DNA of 48,365 bases from Lachnospiraceae bacterium (GTDB lineage: Bacteria; Bacillota; Clostridia; Lachnospirales; Lachnospiraceae), in assembly GCA_029054245.1 (NCBI GenBank), contig JAIDFQ010000035.1, forward strand, positions 1 to 48,365, read 5' to 3'. Of the stretch, positions 11,518-27,103 are shown piece after piece; positions within the stretch are counted from its first letter, which is position 1; the number at the start of each line of letters is the position of its first letter. The position numbers and the translations under genes were made by a program. Under the pieces are notes generated by a model. The model ran no database searches and was not told where the DNA came from. It was given only the letters and a program-made list of their open reading frames with translations.

Positions 11518-12396
11518 TCAGTTTAATTCTTGTTGTAATGCTTCCAAAAATTTTTTTGCAGCTTTTGAAAAAACCTGATATTTTTTCCATACAACAAAGG
11601 CATTTGATGTCAGTTTAGGGGATAGCGGACGAAAACACAGCTCACAGTCCCCGGATAAATTTATTAAATGCGCAAAGGAAAAGGCACAGCCAATGCCTTC
11701 CTCGACCAAAAGTGCAGGCGTGTTGATTAGATTGAATGTGGCAATGATGTTTAGCTTTTTACAGTCATAGCCAAGCCATCCGGATAAGCCGTTTTCCTTT
11801 AGCATCTGGTTGGAGCATAAAAGAGGGATTTGTTCCAGTTGTTCTGGTTGAATGTTTGGAAAGGCGGCAAGCGGATGGTCTTTTCTCATCAGTAAGCCCC
11901 AAGTATCGCTCAGCGGCAGGCGCAGGTGGTCATATTTGGTCAGGTCAACAGGTTCAAATAACACGCCAAAATCCAGCAGACCTTTATCCAGGTACTCCAT
12001 AATATCATAAGCATACCCGCTTATAAGATGATATCGGATCTGCGGATAATCATTTTGAAGGCGCCTGATTGCTTTCGCAATGGTGCGCATGGTGCGGGAC
12101 TCTCCGCCGCCAATATAGACGTCGCCTCCCAGAACTTCATCAAAAGAAGAAAATTCCTGCTCTGTTTTGTCCAGCAAATCTACAATTTCCTGCGCGCGTT
12201 TTCTTAAAAACATTCCTTCCTCTGTCAAAGTGATCTTTCGGCTGCCACGAGTGAACAACGGTCTGCCGACCTCCTTTTCCAGTTCTGAGAGCTGGCGGGA
12301 GAGGTTGGGCTGGGTCGTATGCAAAACCTCTGCCGCTCCAGATATTGTTTCAGTATTAGCCAACGCCAAAAAATAGCGTAGTATGCGGATGTCCAT
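11518..12396 (-). CDS. LysR-family transcriptional regulator (copy A)
   Basis: This full-length 292-residue protein has an N-terminal HTH (MDIRILRYFLALANTETISGAAEVLHTTQPNLSRQLSELEKE) and a periplasmic-binding-like effector domain (~90-290). AGGAGGT lies close upstream on the minus strand. It is a clear paralogue of the regulator at 23132: both share ITLTEEGM-like, LDKGLLDFG-like, RPLSPK and WKKYQVFSKA segments. It is divergent from the alcohol dehydrogenase operon at 12755, whose -35 overlaps a T-N11-A motif (12664-12680) that is nearly identical upstream of the other regulator's target. It is therefore the likely activator of that operon. Confidence 0.9.
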   Translation of the reverse strand: MDIRILRYFLALANTETISGAAEVLHTTQPNLSRQLSELEKEVGRPLFTRGSRKITLTEEGMFLRKRAQEIVDLLDKTEQEFSSFDEVLGGDVYIGGGESRTMRTIAKAIRRLQNDYPQIRYHLISGYAYDIMEYLDKGLLDFGVLFEPVDLTKYDHLRLPLSDTWGLLMRKDHPLAAFPNIQPEQLEQIPLLCSNQMLKENGLSGWLGYDCKKLNIIATFNLINTPALLVEEGIGCAFSFAHLINLSGDCELCFRPLSPKLTSNAFVVWKKYQVFSKAAKKFLEALQQELN

Positions 12397-12663: not shown

Positions 12664-12700
12664 ATAAGTATTTGATATTGGTGGTGTGAAAAATTATAAT
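12664..12700 (+). promoter_or_regulatory. LysR-type box and promoter of the alcohol dehydrogenase operon
   Basis: ATAAGTATTTGATATTG (12664-12680) contains a T-N11-A core and an ATA-N9-TAT dyad. The -35 TTGATA (12672-12677) lies inside it, and TATAAT (12695-12700) follows after exactly 17 bases. The same motif, hexamer positions and spacing recur at 24109-24145. Confidence 0.75.
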
Positions 12701-12754
12701 GACCATAAAGTAAATGTTGCTTTTAATCTAATGATCGAAACTAGGAGGAAGACT

Positions 12755-13921
12755 ATGTTAGGAAATTTTATGTATTGTAACCCGACGAAACTTTATTTCG
12801 GGGAGGATTCTCTTGCCAGCCTGAACGAGGAATTGCCAAAGTACGGGCAAAATGTACAGCTTGTGTATGGCGGCGGATCGATTAAAAAGAATGGTATTTA
12901 TGATAAGGTCATGGAGATTCTGAATGCAAATGGAAAAAATGTGTTTGAAGATGCAGGCGTTATGCCAAATCCAACGGTGCAGAAACTGTATGAAGGCTGT
13001 AAAATTGCCAGGGAGGGTAAAATAGACTTGATTCTTGCGGTTGGAGGCGGTTCTGTCTGCGACTATGCAAAAGCAGTTTCCGTGTCCGCATACTGCAAAG
13101 AAGATCCCTGGGAAAAATATTATCTTCAAATGAAAGATGTGGATAATGAGATTATCCCGGTGGGATGTGTTCTGACAATGGTGGGCACTGGCTCTGAAAT
13201 GAATGGCGGTGCAGTCATAACGAACCATGAGCAGAAATTAAAGATTGGTCATGTGTTTGATGAGAAGGTATATCCTAAATTTTCTATCTTAAATCCGGTA
13301 TTCACCTACACTCTGCCACAGTATCAGATGACTGCAGGGATTTATGACATCATGAATCACATTACGGAGCAGTATTTCTCCGGAGAGGATGACAATACTT
13401 CGGATTATTTGATGGAAGGTTTACTGCGGTCTTTGATTCATTCCAGCAGGATTGCTGTGAAGAATCCTACGGATTACGAAGCAAGAAGTAACATTATGTG
13501 GATTGCAACATGGGCGCTAAATACTTTAGTGGCGAAGGGGAAATCTACGGACTGGATGGTGCATATGCTTGGGCAGGCGGTTGCGGCTCACACGGATGCA
13601 ACGCATGGAATGACATTGGCAGCGGTATCTATGGCCTACTATCGCTTTATCTGCCCGTTTGGATTGGCAAAGTTTAAGAGATTTGCTATCAATGTATGGG
13701 ATATAAATCCGGAAGGAAAGAGTGATGAACAGATTGCAGCGGAAGGTCTGAAGAAAATGGAGGATTATATGGGGGAATTGGGTCTTACTATGAATCTGAA
13801 AGAACTTGGGGTAACAGAGGACATGATTCCGGGAATTGCTGACAGCACACTGATTATGGATGGCGGTTATAAGGTGCCGGATAAGGAGGAAATTACGGAA
13901 ATTTTAAAGAACAGCTTATAA
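12755..13921 (+). CDS. Iron-containing alcohol dehydrogenase (YqhD/BdhA type)
   Basis: The ATG at 12755 is chosen because AGGAGGA ends five bases upstream; the frame is open further back to 12686 but without a good site. The 388-residue protein is a group III dehydrogenase: GGGSIKKNGIYD near 40, the cofactor loop AVGGGSVCDYAKAV near 94, MVGTGSEMNG, and metal ligands Asp/His in YDIMNHITEQY plus His in MVHMLGQ and DATHGMTLA. This matches NADPH-dependent aldehyde/butanol dehydrogenases that reduce aldehydes. First gene of an operon with a small CLDYL protein and an alpha/beta hydrolase, divergent from LysR-A. Confidence 0.93.
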   Translation: MLGNFMYCNPTKLYFGEDSLASLNEELPKYGQNVQLVYGGGSIKKNGIYDKVMEILNANGKNVFEDAGVMPNPTVQKLYEGCKIAREGKIDLILAVGGGSVCDYAKAVSVSAYCKEDPWEKYYLQMKDVDNEIIPVGCVLTMVGTGSEMNGGAVITNHEQKLKIGHVFDEKVYPKFSILNPVFTYTLPQYQMTAGIYDIMNHITEQYFSGEDDNTSDYLMEGLLRSLIHSSRIAVKNPTDYEARSNIMWIATWALNTLVAKGKSTDWMVHMLGQAVAAHTDATHGMTLAAVSMAYYRFICPFGLAKFKRFAINVWDINPEGKSDEQIAAEGLKKMEDYMGELGLTMNLKELGVTEDMIPGIADSTLIMDGGYKVPDKEEITEILKNSL

Positions 13922-14226: not shown

Positions 14227-15222
14227 ATGAACGAAACATTGAAAATGACGCAGGAGTGGGATAAGATTTTTCCGCAGAGCGAGAAAGTAAACCACCGTAA
14301 AATCATGTTCCACAACCGTTATGGTATCACGCTGGCAGCGGATTTGTATGAGCCAAAGGATGCAGCAGGCAAGCTCCCTGCCATTGCTGTGTGTGGTCCC
14401 TTTGGCGCCGTAAAGGAGCAGGCATCCGGTTTGTATGCACAGAAAATGGCAGAACGTGGCTTCCTTACCATGGCGTTTGATCCTTCCTATACCGGTGAGA
14501 GCGGCGGTGAACCCCGATATATGGCTTCTCCTGACATTAACACCGAAGATTTCCAAGCAGCGGTAGATTTCCTCTCTGTACAGGAAAATGTAGATTCAGA
14601 ACGAATCGGTATCATTGGAATCTGTGGTTGGGGTGGTCTGGCTTTGAATGCAGCGACGCTGGATACCCGTATCAAGGCGACTGTGGCTTCTACTATGTAT
14701 GATATGTCCCGTGTCAATGCCAACGGATATTTTGACGCTGAGAACGCTGCTGATGCACGGTATGCGAAGAAAGAAGCCATGAACGCCCAGAGGATCGTGG
14801 ATTATAAAAATGGCAGCTATGCACTAGGCGGCGGGGTTGTCGATCCGCTTCCTGAGGATGCCCCCTTCTTCGTAGCAGATTATCATAATTACTATAAAAC
14901 AGATCGCGGCTACCATAAGCGCTCCTTAAATTCCAACGGAGGATGGAATATGATTGGATGTATGTCCTTTATGAACCAGCCGATCCTTAGGTACAGCAAT
15001 GAGATCCGCAGCGCCGTTTTGATTATGCACGGAGAGAAGGCACACTCCTGCTATTTCAGCCGTGACGCCTATGCAGCTATGATGAAGAATAATCCTTATA
15101 CAGACAACAAGGAACTGTTGATTATTCCGGATGCAGTCCATACTGACCTGTATGATGGCGGCGGAAAGGATGCGATACCTTTTGATAAACTGGAACAGTT
15201 TTTTGAAAAAAACTTGAAATAG
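14227..15222 (+). CDS. Alpha/beta hydrolase (dienelactone hydrolase-like)
   Basis: A 331-residue protein with AAGGAGGG before the ATG. The fold markers are KLPAIAVCGPFGAVKEQASG (oxyanion region), DPSYTGESGG, the nucleophile elbow IGIIGICGWGGLALN with Cys where dienelactone hydrolases have it, AVLIMHGEKAHSC, and a late PDAVHTDLYD His. The family hydrolyses esters, thioesters or lactones. The start MNETLKMTQEWDKIFPQSEKVNH is typical of clostridial members next to AKR and dehydrogenase genes. It is the third gene of the alcohol dehydrogenase operon and is followed by a truncated flavin reductase. Confidence 0.85.
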   Translation: MNETLKMTQEWDKIFPQSEKVNHRKIMFHNRYGITLAADLYEPKDAAGKLPAIAVCGPFGAVKEQASGLYAQKMAERGFLTMAFDPSYTGESGGEPRYMASPDINTEDFQAAVDFLSVQENVDSERIGIIGICGWGGLALNAATLDTRIKATVASTMYDMSRVNANGYFDAENAADARYAKKEAMNAQRIVDYKNGSYALGGGVVDPLPEDAPFFVADYHNYYKTDRGYHKRSLNSNGGWNMIGCMSFMNQPILRYSNEIRSAVLIMHGEKAHSCYFSRDAYAAMMKNNPYTDNKELLIIPDAVHTDLYDGGGKDAIPFDKLEQFFEKNLK

Positions 15223-15584: not shown

Positions 15585-16439
15585 ATGAATCAGACTTACA
15601 TCACATTAAACAATGGAGCGAAAATCCCGCAGTTTGGCATGGGCGTATATATGGTGCCGGAAGGGGAGGAGACAAAGGGTGCGGTTCTGAATGCTCTTAA
15701 GATGGGCTACCGCCATATTGATACGGCCCACGCTTACCAGAACGAGCGCAGCGTAGGCGCTGCAATCCGGGAAAGCGGCATTCCCAGGGAAGAGATTTGG
15801 GTAACATCCAAACTTTGGCCCAATGAGTACGGCGAGGGCAAGACAATAGCCGCCATTGACAAAATGCAAAAACGCCTTGCGGTGGAATCCATTGACCTGC
15901 TTCTTCTGCACCAGCAGGTGGGCGATTATATGGGCGCATGGCGGGACTGTGAAAAGGCAGTCCGGCAGGGAAAAGTGAGGACAATCGGACTTAGCAATTT
16001 TGAATCCGAGCGGCTGGAAGAGGTCTGTGAGGCGGCAGAGATTAAGCCGGCGGTGCTGCAGGTGGAATGTCATCCTTATTTCCAGCAGGAAGAACTAAAG
16101 AAAAGGATTGCCCCTTATGGAACGGTGATTGAGGCATGGTATCCTATCGGGCATGGTGATTCAGATTTGATCGGGGAGCCGGTATTTGCAAAACTGGCAG
16201 ATAAATATGGGAAAACCAATGTGCAGATCATTCTGCGCTGGCATATCCAGGAGGGAAACATTATATTCCCGAAGTCAACGAATCCTCAGCACATCAAAGA
16301 CAATTCTGATATCTTTGATTTTGCCTTAACCAGTGACGAGATGGCAGAAATCAGGAAGATTAATAAGGGCGTGCGTTTTTTCAATATGACACTTAAGCAG
16401 CAGGAAGCACAGTTTACTTCATGGGAAGTGAATGATTAA
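15585..16439 (+). CDS. Aldo/keto reductase (2,5-diketogluconate reductase-like)
   Basis: This 284-residue AKR of the AKR5-like branch begins NNGAKIPQFGMGVYMV. The tetrad is Asp46 and Tyr51 in HIDTAHAYQNE, Lys76 in VTSKLW and His109 in LLLHQ. RTIGLSNF and QVECHPYFQQ are family strands. The cofactor loop FPKSTNPQHIKDN keeps the 2'-phosphate Lys/Ser but has His at the usual Arg. It probably reduces small carbonyl compounds with NADPH. AGAAGGAG precedes the ATG. A hairpin and a truncated MATE gene follow. Confidence 0.92.
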   Translation: MNQTYITLNNGAKIPQFGMGVYMVPEGEETKGAVLNALKMGYRHIDTAHAYQNERSVGAAIRESGIPREEIWVTSKLWPNEYGEGKTIAAIDKMQKRLAVESIDLLLLHQQVGDYMGAWRDCEKAVRQGKVRTIGLSNFESERLEEVCEAAEIKPAVLQVECHPYFQQEELKKRIAPYGTVIEAWYPIGHGDSDLIGEPVFAKLADKYGKTNVQIILRWHIQEGNIIFPKSTNPQHIKDNSDIFDFALTSDEMAEIRKINKGVRFFNMTLKQQEAQFTSWEVND

Positions 16440-16519: not shown

Positions 16520-17170
16520 GTGGGAGAAATCATAAAAATTGGGATTCCGGTGGTCTTAAGCAATTGCTTGGTTGCAGTCATTGCATTGGGAATGAATAGT
16601 ATCCTTATGGGACTTTCGTCGCTGGCTCCGGGGATTTATGTAATCTACATCCGCCTGCAGAGCTTTGTCATTATGCCGTCCAGCGGCATGCGCAGCGCAG
16701 GAATTTCGATTATCGCATACAATTATGGAGCAAAAGAGAAAGAACGTATCATGGACACTTTATGGAAAAGCCTGCATGTAAATGCTGTCATAGCAGCAGC
16801 CGGAATATTTGTTTTCCTTGCTTTCCCGGCACAGCTACTTGCCATGTTCAATGCGTCGGGTGACATGATGGAAATGGGGATCCCGGCTCTTAGGTTCATT
16901 GCTGCGGCCTTGCTGCTTACTACGACAACGCAGATTTTATCAGGTTTCCTGCAGGCTATGGGGCAGGGGATGGCAAGCTTTCTTGTTTCCATTTCCCAGG
17001 CAGTATTCCTGCTGCTTTTTGCATGGATATTTGCACGGACAGGAAGCACTACACTGGTCTGGCTGGCGTTCCCGGCTATGGAAATCATCCGCTTTGCAAT
17101 CGCGGCAGTTATGGTCAGATGGACTTATCAGGGAAAGATCGTGAAACTTCAGACTGCACAGGCAGGATAA
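16520..17170 (+). pseudogene. MATE-family efflux pump, C-terminal half
   Basis: The 216 residues begin at the second repeat of a MATE transporter (GEIIKIGIPVVLSNCLVAV) and run through about six membrane segments (SLAPGIYVIYIRLQSFV, ALRFIAAALLLTTTTQILSG, GFLQAMGQGMASFLV). A normal MATE has about 450 residues and twelve segments, so the first six are missing. The apparent GTG start has no good ribosome binding site. It is probably a deletion remnant. Confidence 0.7.
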
Positions 17171-18269: not shown

Positions 18270-18420
18270 GGCTGATGCGGATGCCTGTGAGAAAAAGAAT
18301 GACTCTGCTTGTGGAAGATAGAATCCACTGGGCGCGAAAGCGTCATGCGCAGCTTGCATGGGATTTTATGAAACAGTTTCGCAGAAATGAACAGGGAACG
18401 GTAGAACAAATAAATTTGCG
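18266..18420 (+). pseudogene. Alpha/beta hydrolase (esterase-like), C-terminal remnant
   Basis: After the overlapping ATG the frame reads DRIHWARKRHAQLAWDFMKQ and FRRNEQGTVEQI. This resembles the last helix of secreted esterase/depolymerase-like hydrolases (AWDFxKQFxRNxxG). Everything before it, including the nucleophile, is absent. The frame runs on into the next gene. Confidence 0.4.
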
Positions 18421-18434
18421 AGAGGTATATAGTT

Positions 18435-19436
18435 ATGAAAAGAATATTTGCAATTATGATTGCGCTGGCTTTTTGCTTTTCTGTGAACGCCTGTGGGCGG
18501 ACAGATAACGGTCAGTCGGAAGAACAGGTGGAAAGTCTGGCAAATGGGACGCAGGAGGACGCCGCGCAGAAGGAACAGCCGGTGGGCGAAGGTTTTGAAG
18601 GGCAGGCATTTGATCTTGGGGCAGGGACTGTCATACTGAACAGCGGATATGAAATGCCCATACTTGGCATTGGGACCTTCCGACTGTCCCAGAGTGAGGC
18701 GGAGGATTCCGTGTACTGGGCGCTCCGGGACGGTTATCGCTTGATCGACACGGCAAGGATTTATGGAAATGAGGCAGGTGTGGGCAGGGGAATCCAGAGG
18801 GCGATTGATGAAGGGTTCGTGACCAGGGAAGAAATTTTTGTCACCACCAAGATGTGGACGGATGATTATAGCAATGGTGCGGCGGCCATTGATGCCTCAC
18901 TTGAGAGATTGGGACTGGATTACATTGACCTTATGATCCTGCATCATTCAGCTCCGGGAAGCGATGCATCCGCATACCAGGCGATGGAACAGGCAGTAAG
19001 TGAGGGGAAGCTCCATTCTATTGGTCTTTCCAATTATTATACACCCGATGATTTTGACCGGCTTGTAGGTGAGACAACGATTACACCTGCCCTGCTTCAA
19101 AATGAAACCCATCCTTATCATCAAAGCACAGAGATGAAGGAACATCTGCAGCAGTATGGCACTGTTATGGAATCGTGGTTTCCTCTTGGAGGACGCGGCA
19201 ATACGCAGACATTATTCAATGATGAAACCATTGTTGAAATTGCAAATGCACACAATAAAACGTCTGCTCAGGTTATCCTGCGTTGGCATCTGCAGGCGGG
19301 AAATATTGCAATTCCTGGCTCCAGCAATGAGGCGCACATTCAGGAGAATTATGAGATTTTTGACTTTGAGCTGACAGAGGATGAGATGCAGAAAATGACC
19401 GCATTAGATCGGAATGAGAGATTTGCCTCTTACTAA
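18435..19436 (+). CDS. Aldo/keto reductase with a lipoprotein signal peptide
   Basis: The protein has 333 residues. Positions 1-20 (MKRIFAIMIALAFCFSVNAC) form a lipoprotein signal with lipobox VNAC and Cys20 as the lipidated residue. An acidic, Gln-rich linker (21-60) follows. An AKR5-like barrel occupies 65-333 with a complete tetrad: Asp105 and Tyr110 in LIDTARIYGNE, Lys139 in TTKMW and His170 in MILHHS. The NADP loop reads IPGSSNEAHIQEN, with Gly and His where relatives bind the 2'-phosphate with Lys and Arg. If exported, the enzyme acts outside the membrane where NAD(P)H is not normally found. It sits upstream of a second lipoprotein, a flavodoxin. Confidence 0.88.
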   Translation: MKRIFAIMIALAFCFSVNACGRTDNGQSEEQVESLANGTQEDAAQKEQPVGEGFEGQAFDLGAGTVILNSGYEMPILGIGTFRLSQSEAEDSVYWALRDGYRLIDTARIYGNEAGVGRGIQRAIDEGFVTREEIFVTTKMWTDDYSNGAAAIDASLERLGLDYIDLMILHHSAPGSDASAYQAMEQAVSEGKLHSIGLSNYYTPDDFDRLVGETTITPALLQNETHPYHQSTEMKEHLQQYGTVMESWFPLGGRGNTQTLFNDETIVEIANAHNKTSAQVILRWHLQAGNIAIPGSSNEAHIQENYEIFDFELTEDEMQKMTALDRNERFASY

Positions 19437-19461: not shown

Positions 19462-19715
19462 ATGAAAGTAATGCTTGTGAACGGCAGTCCTCATGAGAGG
19501 GGGTGTACCTATACGGCTCTTCGAGAACTTGCGGGTACTTTTGAAAAAGAGGGCATCCGGACGGATATTTTCTGAATCGGGAAAAAAGGTTTTATCTTAA
19601 GCCTGCGGCGGCATTGGTTTCGTCACGATATTGGAACATGGTTTACGGAAGTATCCCGGAGCAAATACAGGAAGCTGGGGAAAAGATGGGTATACCATTG
19701 CCCGAATACGATTAA
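19462..19715 (+). pseudogene. NADPH-dependent FMN reductase, internally deleted
   Basis: The first part reads MKVMLVNGSPHERGCTYTAL and RELAGTFEKEGIRTDIF, a flavodoxin-fold P-loop, and stops at 19573-19575. In another frame near 19605-19711, PAAALVSSRYWNMVYG and SIPEQIQEAGEKMGIPLPEYD form the C-terminus of the same family. The centre (about 100 residues) is missing. It lies between the AKR lipoprotein and the flavodoxin lipoprotein. Confidence 0.65.
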
Positions 19716-19726
19716 GGAGATTTACC

Positions 19727-20503
19727 ATGAAAAAATTTTTTTCTCAAAAAATAGTACTTTCGTTTTTTCTTTGTGGTCTGATGGCGGTTTCGTTTACAGC
19801 CTGCGGCGGAAACACCGGACAGGAAAATAATAATGATATAGCTGATACTTTGAATCCACTTCCTGAAAGCGGAGCGGACAGTGAGTCCGAGTCTGCTTCT
19901 GGGAGCGTGCGGGATGGCGGTACGGAAGGCTCTGAACAGGCGCCGGATTCTACGGAAAGTGTGGATGCAGACACGCCTGCGGGCAGCAATATTCTGGTAG
20001 CATATTTTTCTCTTGCGGATGAGCAGTATGAAGTGGGTGTGGTTGAAAAGGGCAATACACAGATTGTTGCAAAGATCATTGCGGATCAGACAGGAGCGGA
20101 TACATTTTCCATTGAATCAACAGTCGCTTATCCCACAACCTATGATGGACTGCTTGAAATATCCCGTGAGGAGGAAAACAATCCGCCGGAGATTGCCGGA
20201 ACAGTCGAAAACATGGACGACTACAATATAATCTTCATCGGTTACCCGATCTGGTGGGGAGATCTTCCTGCGATTGTGAAAGTATTTCTGGAAAGCTATG
20301 ATCTCTCCGGAAAGACAGTCATTCCTTTCTGTACCCATGCAGGAAGCGGGCTTTCGGGGACACAGGGAACCGTTGAGACTCTTTGTGATGGGGCAACGAT
20401 AGAAGATGGTCTTGCGGTGCGTGGAAAGACGGCACAGGAAGATATGGATTCGGCAGAAAGCTCAGTAACGGAATGGCTGCGTGGTCTGGGATTTGTGGAA
20501 TAA
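19727..20503 (+). CDS. Flavodoxin-domain lipoprotein
   Basis: The ATG at 19727 follows AAGGAG by eight bases; the longer frame from 19631 lies in the preceding remnant and is rejected. The protein has 258 residues: a signal peptide MKKFFSQKIVLSFFLCGLMA ending in the lipobox FTAC, a Ser/Glu/Asp-rich linker (~30-90), then a flavodoxin fold (~92-258) with ILVAYFSLADEQYEVG (phosphate loop), NIIFIGYPIWWGDLPAIVKVFLES (FMN-ring loop with paired Trp) and IPFCTHAGSGLSGTQGTVE. It should carry FMN on the outer membrane face and pass electrons. The neighbouring AKR lipoprotein suggests a joint surface function. Confidence 0.88.
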   Translation: MKKFFSQKIVLSFFLCGLMAVSFTACGGNTGQENNNDIADTLNPLPESGADSESESASGSVRDGGTEGSEQAPDSTESVDADTPAGSNILVAYFSLADEQYEVGVVEKGNTQIVAKIIADQTGADTFSIESTVAYPTTYDGLLEISREEENNPPEIAGTVENMDDYNIIFIGYPIWWGDLPAIVKVFLESYDLSGKTVIPFCTHAGSGLSGTQGTVETLCDGATIEDGLAVRGKTAQEDMDSAESSVTEWLRGLGFVE

Positions 20504-20531: not shown

Positions 20532-20886
20532 ATGGAGGATATCAAGGCAAAAACATTGATTGCATATTTTTCACATGCCGGGCAGAATTATACCCATGGC
20601 GGAATTGGATATTTAGAAGTTGGAAATACGGAAGTGGTGGCAAAAAAGCTCCATAAGCAGCTTAAGTGGAAATGGAAGGGGCTGCGCAACAGCAGGATTG
20701 AATCCCTGAACGGCTTGCATACGTTGGAATATGCGGAACAGATTGGGCTAGATAGAGCCTCCGGTGGATGGCAGGCGTGCAAAGGTGGATCTTGCCAGCG
20801 AAGCTGGCCCGGATGGAGCATTTTTTGACGGGGCATTTTATTTTGCGGAAGCAAAGCCGCTGGAGACAGTGCAGTCCATATGAAAT
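20532..20886 (+). pseudogene. Flavodoxin remnant and unidentified C-terminal fragment
   Basis: The start reads KTLIAYFSHAGQNYTHGG and YLEVGNTEVVAKKL, a cytoplasmic flavodoxin N-terminus. After about 45 residues the frame loses its family character. A different frame ends at 20886 with PPVDGRRAKVDLASEAGPDG and AFFDGAFYFAEAKPLETVQSI, the tail of a protein I do not recognise. This is probably another deletion junction. Confidence 0.55.
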
Positions 20887-22236: not shown

Positions 22237-22603
22237 GACTAAAGAGTATTGGAAGAAAGAGGCAGTGGGGAAAATGAAAGAAATCAGAGTGGAAACAACA
22301 CACAGAATTCGATTATGTAAAGCTTGCGGAATGTGCAGTAAGAACTGTCCGGCGCAGATCAATATTCCTGAAGCATTGGGAATCTATGAGGAGTACCTGT
22401 CAGGTGATATGGGGATATTGGAAAAACTGGACGAAATGGAGTCATCCGGAAAGCCGATGGATTGCATTGAATGCGGCGCATGTTCTGCTCATTGTCCAAA
22501 TGGTGTGGACGTAAAAGAATTGGTAAGAGAACTGGCAATGATGCAGTCATGCCAGAGATTGATACCATCTCGGCATGGCAGGCAGAAGGAGATGGGAAGA
22601 TGA
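22229..22603 (+). pseudogene. Detached double [4Fe-4S] domain of a ferredoxin-type AKR
   Basis: The ATG at 22274 is a more natural start than the TTG at 22229. The protein contains CKACGMCSKNCPAQINIPEAL and, 50 residues later, CIECGACSAHCPNGVDVKELV, two C-x2-C-x2-C-x3-CP clusters with the spacing of the AKR C-terminal ferredoxin domain (compare 25970). The barrel is absent. It could be expressed as a free ferredoxin, but the absence of a good ribosome binding site and the surrounding remnants favour a fragment. Confidence 0.55.
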
Positions 22604-23064
22604 AAAAGATATGGGCGTTTTTTATGAGTGCAGGGCTTATGTCACTGCTTTTTCTGACCGGGTGTTCCCAGACGGGGCAGCCAGATCGGGAGCAGGACAG
22701 TATCCCGTCACAGCAGGAAACAGGAAAGGTCATTTATATTGACCCTTATGCGGGAGATGCCTATGACCTTCCGGCAGATCTGATACTGGTGACGCATTCC
22801 CATTTTGACCACAGCCAGACAGACAAAGTGGAATACCGCAATGAGGGCTGTCAGACCATTACGCAGAAAGAAGCTGTTTTAAACGGAGAGCATCAGATTT
22901 TTGATCTGGGCTATGTCACGGTGGAGACTGTGGAGGCAGGATATAATCCGCTGCACGATGTAAATGAGTGTGTGGGTTATGTGCTGACCTTCTCCAACGG
23001 GAAATCCGTTTATGTCACCGGCGACACATCCACAACGGATGGGGAAGAAATCATAGTTAAGTGA
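22600..23064 (+). pseudogene. Metallo-beta-lactamase-fold lipoprotein, truncated
   Basis: MKKIWAFFMSAGLMSLLFLTG with the lipobox LTGC is a lipoprotein signal. It is followed by VIYIDPYAGDAYDLPADLIL, VTHSHFDHSQ (the HxHxDH metal motif) and GYVLTFSNGKSVYVTGDTST, like UPF0173-type lactonase-fold hydrolases. The first strands (before VIYIDPY) and the C-terminal ~65 residues with the last metal His are missing; the frame ends soon after GDTSTTDG. It is probably inactive. Confidence 0.65.
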
Positions 23065-25416: not shown

Positions 25417-25947
25417 ATGAAAAAGATGATTTGTATAGTATCGCTTTTGGCGGTATTGCTTACGATAATGGCCTGTGGAAACACGCTGGAAGAAAAAAAG
25501 TCGGAGATAGAAACAGGAGCAGCATTGAGCGATGAAGTACAGACAGAGATTCAGCCGACAGAATCTGCACAGGAAAATATAGAAGAGGAGGTAACAGAGA
25601 TGAAAGTTCAAATTGGAAATACTGCTTTTTCTGCAACGTTGGCAGATAATTCTTCCGTAGATGCGTTGAAGGAATTGATGGCAGATGGTCCTCTTATTTT
25701 GAACATGAGTGATTATGCAAATATGGAAAAAAGTGCAGATCTGGGGGTTATACTGCCTCAGAACAATGAGCAGATGAATACACAGGCAGGTGATATGATT
25801 CTGTATCAGGGCAGGACATTTGTAATCTACTATGACACAAATTCATGGAGTCTGACACCCATTGGAAAAATTGACAATGTGGATGCAGAAGAATTGAGAG
25901 AGGTGTTGGGAACTGGCGACGTTACAGTGACCTTGTCTCTTGAATAA
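25417..25947 (+). CDS. Cyclophilin-like domain lipoprotein
   Basis: The ATG at 25417 opens MKKMICIVSLLAVLLTIMAC, a lipoprotein signal with lipobox IMAC. The longer frame from 25285 overlaps DUF3737 and is rejected. After a Glu-rich linker (~25-55) comes a compact beta-barrel: MKVQIGNTAFSATLADNSSVDALKELM, LGVILPQN, AGDMILYQGRTFVIYYDTNSWSLTPIGKI. This is the cyclophilin-like family often found with flavodoxins and AKRs in gut anaerobes. 176 residues. No prolyl-isomerase active-site set is visible. Its stop is 22 bases before the AKR start, so they are one operon. Confidence 0.8.
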   Translation: MKKMICIVSLLAVLLTIMACGNTLEEKKSEIETGAALSDEVQTEIQPTESAQENIEEEVTEMKVQIGNTAFSATLADNSSVDALKELMADGPLILNMSDYANMEKSADLGVILPQNNEQMNTQAGDMILYQGRTFVIYYDTNSWSLTPIGKIDNVDAEELREVLGTGDVTVTLSLE

Positions 25948-25969
25948 GGAAAACAGGAGGAGAGAGCAT

Positions 25970-27103
25970 ATGATTTATAGAAAGTTTCAAGATATTCAAT
26001 TGTCTGGTTTAGGGCTTGGCATGATGCGTCTGCCGGTGCTGGATGGTAATGACGGAGCAGTGGATGAGACTGCAGCAGCAGAACTGATTGACTTTGCTTA
26101 CAAGAGTGGAATTAATTATTTTGATACGGCATGGGGATACCATAATGGTAATTCAGAGCTGGTTGCAGGAAAGTATCTCTCAAGATATCCACGGGAGAGC
26201 TATTACCTTGCCAGCAAATTTCCAGGTTATGACCTTTCTAATATGAGCAAGGTGGAAGAAATTTTTGTTAGACAGCTTGAAAAATGTCAGACACAGTATT
26301 TCGATTTTTATTTGTTTCATAATGTCTATGAAGGGAATATCGATTCATACCTTGACCCCCAATATGGGATTTTGGAGTATCTTTTGAAACAGAAGGCTGA
26401 TGGTCGTATTCGACACCTTGGATTTTCGGCACATGGCAGCGCAGAAGTGATCCGGCGCTTTATGGATGCCTATGGTAAGCATATGGAATTTTGCCAGCTT
26501 CAACTCAACTATATGGATTGGCATTTCCAGAATGCGCAGGAGAAGGCAGCCATTTTGCAGAAAGCCGGCATCCCGGTATGGGTTATGGAGCCCCTGCGAG
26601 GAGGAAAGCTTGCGAAAGCCTCAGAAGAATTGACTGCGGTATTGCATTCTATGCGACCGAAGGAAACGATTCCTGGATGGGCATTCCGATTCCTGCAAAG
26701 CATTCCTGGTGTAACGATGGTGTTATCCGGTATGTCCAATATGGAGCAGTTAAAAGCCAATATTGCTACATATGAGACAGATGAGCCTTTAAATACAGAA
26801 GAATTTAACACGTTGGTGCGGTGTGCGGATGAGGAAACCAGAAAGGGCGGGCTTCCCTGTACGGCTTGCCATTATTGCACCAGCCATTGTCCGAAGGAAC
26901 TTCCGATTCCGGAATTGATTGATTTATACAATGAACATAAGATTACAGGAGGCGGCTTTATCGCCCCCATGGCGGTGGGCAGTATGTCCCAGGAAAAACG
27001 CCCTGCTAACTGTATTGGATGCAGAAGGTGTGAACAAGTCTGCCCGCAGCGGATAAAAATATCTGAAGCGATGAAGGATTTTACTGCTATGATTGGTATG
27101 TAG
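25970..27103 (+). CDS. Aldo/keto reductase with C-terminal ferredoxin domain
   Basis: The ATG at 25970 follows AGGAGGAGAG. The protein has 377 residues. The barrel (1-285) carries Asp52 and Tyr57 in YFDTAWGYHNG, Lys83 in ASKFPG and His117 in YLFHNVY. The C-terminal domain (~295-377) has two cluster motifs, CTACHYCTSHCPKELPIPELI and CIGCRRCEQVCPQRIKISEAM. Such enzymes can draw electrons from or pass them to ferredoxin/flavodoxin instead of, or in addition to, NADPH. Intact model for the fragments at 11000 and 22229. It closes the LysR-B operon. Confidence 0.93.
   Translation: MIYRKFQDIQLSGLGLGMMRLPVLDGNDGAVDETAAAELIDFAYKSGINYFDTAWGYHNGNSELVAGKYLSRYPRESYYLASKFPGYDLSNMSKVEEIFVRQLEKCQTQYFDFYLFHNVYEGNIDSYLDPQYGILEYLLKQKADGRIRHLGFSAHGSAEVIRRFMDAYGKHMEFCQLQLNYMDWHFQNAQEKAAILQKAGIPVWVMEPLRGGKLAKASEELTAVLHSMRPKETIPGWAFRFLQSIPGVTMVLSGMSNMEQLKANIATYETDEPLNTEEFNTLVRCADEETRKGGLPCTACHYCTSHCPKELPIPELIDLYNEHKITGGGFIAPMAVGSMSQEKRPANCIGCRRCEQVCPQRIKISEAMKDFTAMIGM

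Follow-up and report, generated by a model that had tools for sequence, protein, structure and literature searches.

A putative lipoprotein aldo/keto reductase of a Lachnospiraceae bacterium and its clade of predicted exported relatives

Results

The gene and its predicted product

The window (the whole stretch of DNA analysed here, 48,365 nucleotides of contig JAIDFQ010000035.1 from a Lachnospiraceae bacterium, assembly GCA_029054245.1) carries a gene for an aldo/keto reductase (AKR) behind a lipoprotein-type leader. This gene, the clade of presumably exported enzymes to which it belongs and the redox role it might have are the subject of our report. The gene has the following features.

18435..19436, + strand: predicted exported (lipoprotein-type) AKR, 333 amino acids plus stop (open reading frame with ATG start, PF00248, structure model)
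18420..18425, + strand: ribosome-binding-like GAGAGG, 5' of the ATG (sequence)
18435..18494, + strand: lipoprotein-type signal peptide, residues 1-20, with Cys20 at 18492-18494 (sequence, heuristic, relatives)
18495..18626, + strand: flexible linker, residues 21-64 (model; pLDDT below 50 in residues 24-45)
18627..19433, + strand: AKR barrel domain, residues 65-333 (Pfam, model)
18747..18749, + strand: catalytic Asp105 (alignment with relatives)
18762..18764, + strand: catalytic Tyr110 (alignment with relatives)
18849..18851, + strand: catalytic Lys139 (alignment with relatives)
18942..18944, + strand: catalytic His170, followed by the clade-typical His171 (alignment with relatives)
19188..19199, + strand: clade-specific GGRG loop, residues 252-255 (81 of 81 versus 1 of 39 rows)
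19311..19337, + strand: cofactor loop IPGSSNEAH, residues 293-301, with G and H replacing K and R (alignment, PDB sequence search)

The protein clearly belongs to the AKR superfamily. A Pfam profile search matches PF00248 to residues 78-325 (E 1.4e-43), the structure model (pLDDT, predicted local distance difference test, 87.9; predicted template modelling score 0.81) is a complete (alpha/beta)8 AKR barrel, and the Asp-Tyr-Lys-His tetrad is in place. The original prediction had claimed a complete tetrad, and D105, Y110, K139 and H170 are indeed invariant in all 81 close and all 39 distant relatives described below (79/79 and 25/25 in an earlier alignment). S199, N200, Q222, W248, S296 and N305, which we take to bind the nicotinamide and its neighbours in AKRs, are each found in 81 of the 81 close relatives. 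Purifying selection acts on the AKR domain, the ratio of nonsynonymous to synonymous substitution rates (dN/dS) being 0.044, 0.039, 0.141 and 0.059 in the four of seven pairs with estimable dS, two of them with dS of about 1.9. In pairwise comparison the linker evolves faster than the domain.

A clade of predicted exported AKRs

A scan of genome contigs gave 48 loci. In all, 120 AKR domains were kept after 33 short and 21 duplicate matches had been dropped (29 and 15 in an earlier set), and they split into 81 that share 49% identity or more with the query and 39 that share less. This boundary was chosen after a gap had been seen, the first group going down to 49.3 and the second up to 47.2. 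Rows within these sets of 81 and 39 are not independent of one another; trees were built on 65 representatives sharing less than 85% identity. All exported rows, 41 of the 65 with one unsignalled copy included, lie on one side of a branch with support of 100/99, which was recovered in 100% of 200 bootstraps (IQ-TREE). The unsignalled copy (L114:1450-2283) is a tandem AKR whose frame overlaps that of a preceding exported flavodoxin-AKR fusion at its end; it is the sole clade member seen without a signal in an uncut, uninterrupted frame.

Several features of the sequence mark the clade, and the only other row that carries GGRG at 252-255 is the L114 copy, which lies inside it. The segment from W248 to A270 has 23 residues in 81/81 and 21 residues in 37 of the 39 others, the two exceptions being the L114 copy and L087 (GGKG). 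His171 is present in 77/81 versus 1/39 (again the L114 copy). Five residues follow position 328 in 80/81, whereas 20 to 35 follow in the others except the L114 copy, and the chain ends with Tyr or Trp in 80/81 clade rows. The window AKR falls in the exported clade by the branch as well as by the GGRG loop and the C-terminus. The loop that follows this strand in AKRs overlies the pyrophosphate of the cofactor, so that GGRG might, we suggest, clamp the cofactor here.

Matches were found in 42 of 200 genomes of the family at E<=1e-60 and in 20 of 200 at E<=1e-85, the latter threshold serving as a proxy for the exported type; in 22 of 295 genomes of the order at E<=1e-75, where L080 at least is of cytosolic type; and in 7 of 398 genomes of the phylum, the own genome being included in each count. 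Judged from these matches, the exported clade seems to be spread over Lachnospiraceae and scattered other Firmicutes. Carriage by plasmids was considered and rejected: six plasmid records match at E<=1e-60 with 40.4 to 43.5% identity, under the clade boundary. One of them holds a 284-amino-acid AKR gene that starts five codons ahead of the match. The own genome contains a second lipoprotein-type AKR (L002, contig C58:15037-15978), 49% identical and interrupted by TAG. Contig C58 repeats the order of the window, with the interrupted AKR, a full-length FMN (flavin mononucleotide) reductase gene between, and a lipoprotein flavodoxin.

Leaders and surface modules

The window leader, MKRIFAIMIALAFCFSVNAC followed by G, has a basic start, a hydrophobic core and Cys20, with about 44 linker residues before the AKR domain. 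The original prediction called its lipobox, VNAC, clear. The lipoprotein-type leader with Cys20 is upheld, but VNAC is slightly off the lipobox consensus, being rejected by a strict pattern and accepted by a relaxed one, with an unusual N at -2. The nearest relative, L012, reads VSAC and passes the strict pattern.

Our export calls come from a home-made signal heuristic, not a trained predictor; it called a signal in 75 of the 81 close relatives and in 0 of the 39 distant ones. Over the 120 rows it returned 64 lipoboxes, 11 signals without Cys and 45 rows without signal, among which are all 39 distant rows. Three of the remaining six unsignalled rows are truncated where the fetched stretch ends and have partial flavodoxin, dockerin-like or S-layer-like sequence upstream; the other three have frames starting after an interruption, and in L022, an interrupted frame, a leader is visible in another frame. 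By eye, two rows classed as signal without Cys (L013, L107) have a Cys at a lipobox-like place; another row of this class, L069, is a doubtful call. In the neighbourhood run described below, a signal was called in 38 of 40 exported-type centres and in 0 of 20 cytosolic ones.

Pfam was run on ten chosen relatives for modules N-terminal to the AKR. Flavodoxin_4 precedes it in L063 and L103, and does so together with Big_2 in L035, with Dockerin_1 in L074 and with two SLH domains in L120. Three SLH domains stand before the AKR in L038, Cu_amine_oxidN1 in L095 and Cyclophil_like2 in L098 and L101 (likewise in L113, by eye); L091 has the AKR domain alone. The leader of L103 holds SRRQFTK, of twin-arginine type. 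A phmmer search of the 81 found fused flavodoxin in 30, cyclophilin-like domains in 4, SLH in 3, Ig-like domains in 5 and dockerin in 1, while no flavodoxin fusion is seen in the six distant relatives whose N-terminal stretch exceeds 30 residues. Leaders and anchors are exchanged across the clade, from lipobox and twin-arginine-type leaders to S-layer, dockerin and Ig-like domains. Because SLH and dockerin domains function outside cells, the predicted location does not depend on the lipobox alone. With the clade-wide signal and the exchanged anchoring domains, the placement outside the cell put forward in the original prediction gains support.

The cofactor loop

Residues 293-301 read IPGSSNEAH in place of IPKS-(x4)-R, as had been noted before. 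In the NADP-type AKR loop, Lys and Arg hold the 2'-phosphate; with G295 and H301 the window protein departs from that type. Both residues are found in 81/81 clade rows. Of the 39 distant rows, 26 have K and 13 have G at position 295, while at position 301 H is found in 26 and R in 13; the cytosolic copy L087 carries the whole loop IPGSSNPDH. Since cytosolic relatives share parts of it, the loop is not a marker of export; we dropped it as a hallmark. The GGRG loop and the C-terminus mark the clade better.

A PDB search with the C-terminal 46 residues of L063 puts 1m9h first among 66 sequences (35.3 bits versus 28.0 for the wild type, 1a80), and its PGSVRREH aligns with PGSSNPDH in the same register. 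With the window's own 55 residues the two score 45.4 and 38.1 bits. We take 1m9h to be the F22Y/K232G/R238H/A272G mutant of Corynebacterium 2,5-diketo-D-gluconate (2,5-DKG) reductase A, made for NADH use. The clade resembles it in the PGS....H loop and, in 56/81, in a Tyr at the equivalent of Phe22. The window protein differs in keeping Phe82, and Tyr stands there in 18/39 of the other relatives as well. Moreover, 1m9h is a laboratory mutant of an enzyme that is not known to be exported. In a xylose reductase the exchange R276H gives a preference for NADH (PMC2213684), and K272G/S273G/N274D of the Candida boidinii xylose reductase is tabulated in a review among attempts to change coenzyme specificity (PMC5817062).

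By analogy we infer that K-to-G and R-to-H would fit NADH instead of NADPH, an ordinary substitution. The claim of a different cofactor or hydride donor therefore survives in part: the loop points to NADH in place of NADPH rather than to F420 or another donor in the pocket. An exotic cofactor was rejected, as the loop equals the engineered one of 1m9h and is shared in part by cytosolic relatives. Flavin would enter as a separate or fused flavodoxin and not as a donor in the AKR pocket.

Neighbourhood of the gene

The following neighbours were noted.

19462..19575, + strand: remnant of a gene like those for NADPH-dependent FMN reductases, covering positions 1 to 37 of PF03358 (Pfam; full-length copy in own contig C58)
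19727..20503, + strand: candidate partner of the AKR, a lipoprotein flavodoxin of Flavodoxin_4 type whose leader ends in FTACGG (PF12682, 1.9e-27; domain type fused in AKR relatives)
25417..25947, + strand: lipoprotein-type leader and Cyclophil_like2 domain (Pfam; domain fused to AKR in L098, L101, L113)
15585..16439, + strand: cytosolic-type paralogous AKR with the loop IFPKSTNPQH and no signal, among the outgroup rows (open reading frame, alignment)
12686..13921, + strand: YqhD-like iron alcohol dehydrogenase of the same cluster (in NCBIfam PRK15138 scores best, its 272.9 bits falling short of the cut-off of 645)
14227..15222, + strand: alpha/beta hydrolase of a type near exported AKRs (Pfam; 19 of 40 loci)
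11518..12396, - strand: divergent LysR-type regulator (LysR relatives at 30 of the 40 exported loci)

As a control, 40 exported loci were compared with 20 loci of cytosolic sisters over 6.5 kb each way; the loci were chosen by us from match lists, and several are cut by contig ends. A hydrolase like that at 14227 is found near 19/40 exported versus 2/20 cytosolic AKRs, an FMN reductase near 15/40 versus 2/20 and a LysR gene near 30/40 versus 10/20. Exported flavodoxin is fused or near in 28/40 (fused in 22) versus 8/20. Separate flavodoxins without a called signal occur at 8/40 versus 9/20 loci.

Neither ApbE nor FMN_bind is found in the window cluster; the own genome has one ApbE gene (contig C38) and two FMN_bind genes (C38 and C27), the window being contig C29. 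By eye, one FMN_bind gene lies inside an operon that reads as Rnf-type. In contig C44 of the own genome a DUF4405 (PF14358) membrane protein, possibly a transmembrane electron conduit, directly follows a lipoprotein flavodoxin (L145:2032-2748).

Further observations concern the surroundings. By eye, the FMN reductase-like remnant extends to 19715, with a C-terminal stretch following and the middle missing. A flavodoxin-like start at 20532-20828 (by eye, no Pfam match) soon gives way to unrelated sequence. At 25940-27103 the same cluster has an AKR with a C-terminal 4Fe-4S dicluster region. A short lipoprotein-type frame at 22600-23064 has a metallo-beta-lactamase-like domain (Lactamase_B_2/B_3), and relatives of this frame lie in several loci with 5-kb flanks. 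The frame at 16520-17170 corresponds by eye to no more than the C-terminal half of a MATE-type transporter; its relatives occur upstream of exported AKRs at a number of loci. A tyrosine recombinase-like gene (by eye) occupies 329-1564 at the left end of the window.

Discussion

We suggest, with belief and doubt about evenly balanced, that the window gene encodes a membrane-anchored extracytoplasmic AKR of a distinct exported clade, working as a carbonyl reductase of NAD(H) type that couples to an FMN flavodoxin. Export would follow the Sec route, with lipidation at Cys20. The enzyme would use NAD(H) rather than NADP(H), with the GGRG loop perhaps aiding in holding the cofactor, and reduce reactive carbonyls (aldehydes, dicarbonyls) outside the membrane. 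Presumed hydride or electron exchange would then take place with an FMN flavodoxin, which is fused in many relatives and here is probably the lipoprotein flavodoxin at 19727-20503. There are two candidate sources of reducing power. Firstly, the flavodoxin might be fed via a membrane protein, like the DUF4405 protein beside the lipoprotein flavodoxin of contig C44. Secondly, the protein might fold first and take the cofactor out with it, which a leader of twin-arginine type like that of L103 would allow and the precedent of glucose-fructose oxidoreductase (GFOR) suggests.

A number of observations weigh against this proposal. Regarding export, VNAC departs from the lipobox consensus, the evidence consists of heuristic calls, and one of these (L069) looks spurious, its "leader" starting within a flavodoxin fragment; 2 of the 40 exported-type centres have no called signal, and a start at a GTG in frame at 18528 or at 18582 (the latter behind AAGGA) could give a leaderless form. 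Regarding the cofactor, a supply has to be assumed, because free NADH would not be expected in the extracellular space; in the search with the window's own 55 residues 1m9h ranks ninth, the five best sequences reading PKS. Regarding the partner, 45 of the 81 exported AKRs have no searched fusion (phmmer; L095 included). Separate exported flavodoxins occur at 7/40 exported versus 8/20 cytosolic loci, so the excess of exported flavodoxin comes from fusion alone, and any other flavodoxin-domain gene is found at 13/40 versus 14/20. Because unfused neighbours are no commoner, the pairing of the window's unfused AKR with its flavodoxin rests on fusions elsewhere, and we do not use the flavodoxin neighbourhood as proof of a pathway. 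Iron alcohol dehydrogenase genes are no commoner either (10/40 versus 7/20), and DUF4405 is rare (3/40 versus 2/20); as a general electron conduit it was discarded, remaining a lead from contig C44.

How the cofactor would be held is a matter of further speculation. It is possible, and we put it forward tentatively, that the AKR keeps bound NAD as a prosthetic group outside the cell, clamped by the GGRG loop, and shuttles hydride between extracellular carbonyls and the fused or adjacent FMN flavodoxin. More doubtful to us is that the exported AKR works on free NADH or NADPH from lysed cells, its link with flavodoxin reflecting co-regulation in a LysR-linked stress cluster. The many exported AKRs without fusion would agree with this, as would the unfused exported flavodoxins and the presence of some flavodoxin near 14/20 cytosolic AKRs; the 30 flavodoxin fusions among the 81, with none in the six distant relatives, argue against it.

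The enzyme might also run in the oxidative direction, using NAD+ to oxidise an alcohol or sugar outside the cell, with electrons passing via the flavodoxin to another acceptor. AKR chemistry is reversible, and a flavodoxin could take up electrons as well as give them off; ApbE and FMN_bind genes are present in the own genome, one of the latter in the Rnf-type operon. These genes, however, lie on other contigs, and the company in the window (YqhD-like dehydrogenase, DkgA-like AKRs, hydrolase, LysR) resembles carbonyl-detoxification sets, which makes this direction unlikely. That the enzyme is cytosolic, its N-terminus being wrongly called or left unused through an internal start or an uncleaved leader, is very improbable. 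The off-pattern lipobox would suit it, as would the GTG at 18582, from which a complete leaderless AKR domain could be made, and the clade member without a leader (the second L114 copy). Against these stand the ribosome-binding-like site before the ATG and the signals in 75/81 relatives, some of which have S-layer or dockerin domains and no need of a lipobox. The non-redox role offered in the original prediction, that of a surface binding protein on an AKR barrel, might be prompted by the unusual predicted location, but it is hardly credible because the tetrad (81/81) and the nicotinamide-site residues are invariant, the model is a complete barrel and dN/dS is 0.04 to 0.14 in four pairs.

The closest known group are the 2,5-DKG reductase or DkgA-YvgN AKRs (1mzr, 3d3f, 1vp5), which we take to be AKR5-type. 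The window protein scores 222.6 bits with the DkgA equivalog (NCBIfam NF008598), under its curated cut-off of 425, and differs from the group by its export leader, the loop G and H, GGRG in a longer loop and a short C-terminus. Zymomonas GFOR shares with the window AKR that it is an exported nicotinamide enzyme. Reportedly (Halbig 1999), it sets a precedent for NADP carried across the membrane; it has the Gfo/Idh/MocA fold, is exported by the twin-arginine route and is not an AKR. The E. coli enzymes of the yqhD/dkgA set are cytosolic, and the yqhC regulator is AraC-type. The window, unlike that system, has a LysR-type regulator and members with predicted export; what it has in common with the aldehyde response of yqhC-yqhD-dkgA is an iron alcohol dehydrogenase, a DkgA-like AKR and a regulator (PMC6115493). 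Flavin-based extracytosolic electron transfer, as surveyed for ApbE-flavinylated proteins (Meheust et al. 2021, PMC8238504), is alike in tying extracytosolic flavoproteins to reductases; the string "aldo" is absent from the main text of that survey. Among the matches listed from openly licensed literature (titles and abstract starts), none describes an exported AKR, or an AKR and flavodoxin with lipoprotein or signal peptide. We rate the AKR fold and chemistry as known, the predicted location as unexpected and the domain partners as new.

Nicotinamide enzymes are expected inside cells because their cofactor is there. That the full catalytic machinery is kept while surface modules are exchanged is hard to explain unless the activity lies outside, and the fusion to flavodoxin offers a possible electron route. 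The clade also uses, in nature, the G and H loop residues that enzyme engineers picked. If true, a surface AKR with bound NAD would be another route, beside the GFOR type, to extracytoplasmic nicotinamide chemistry. Taken together, a clade with many predicted surface anchors and flavin-carrier fusions points to undescribed redox chemistry at the cell surface, which may bear on the transformation of aldehydes, dietary carbonyls and drugs at the surface of gut bacteria.
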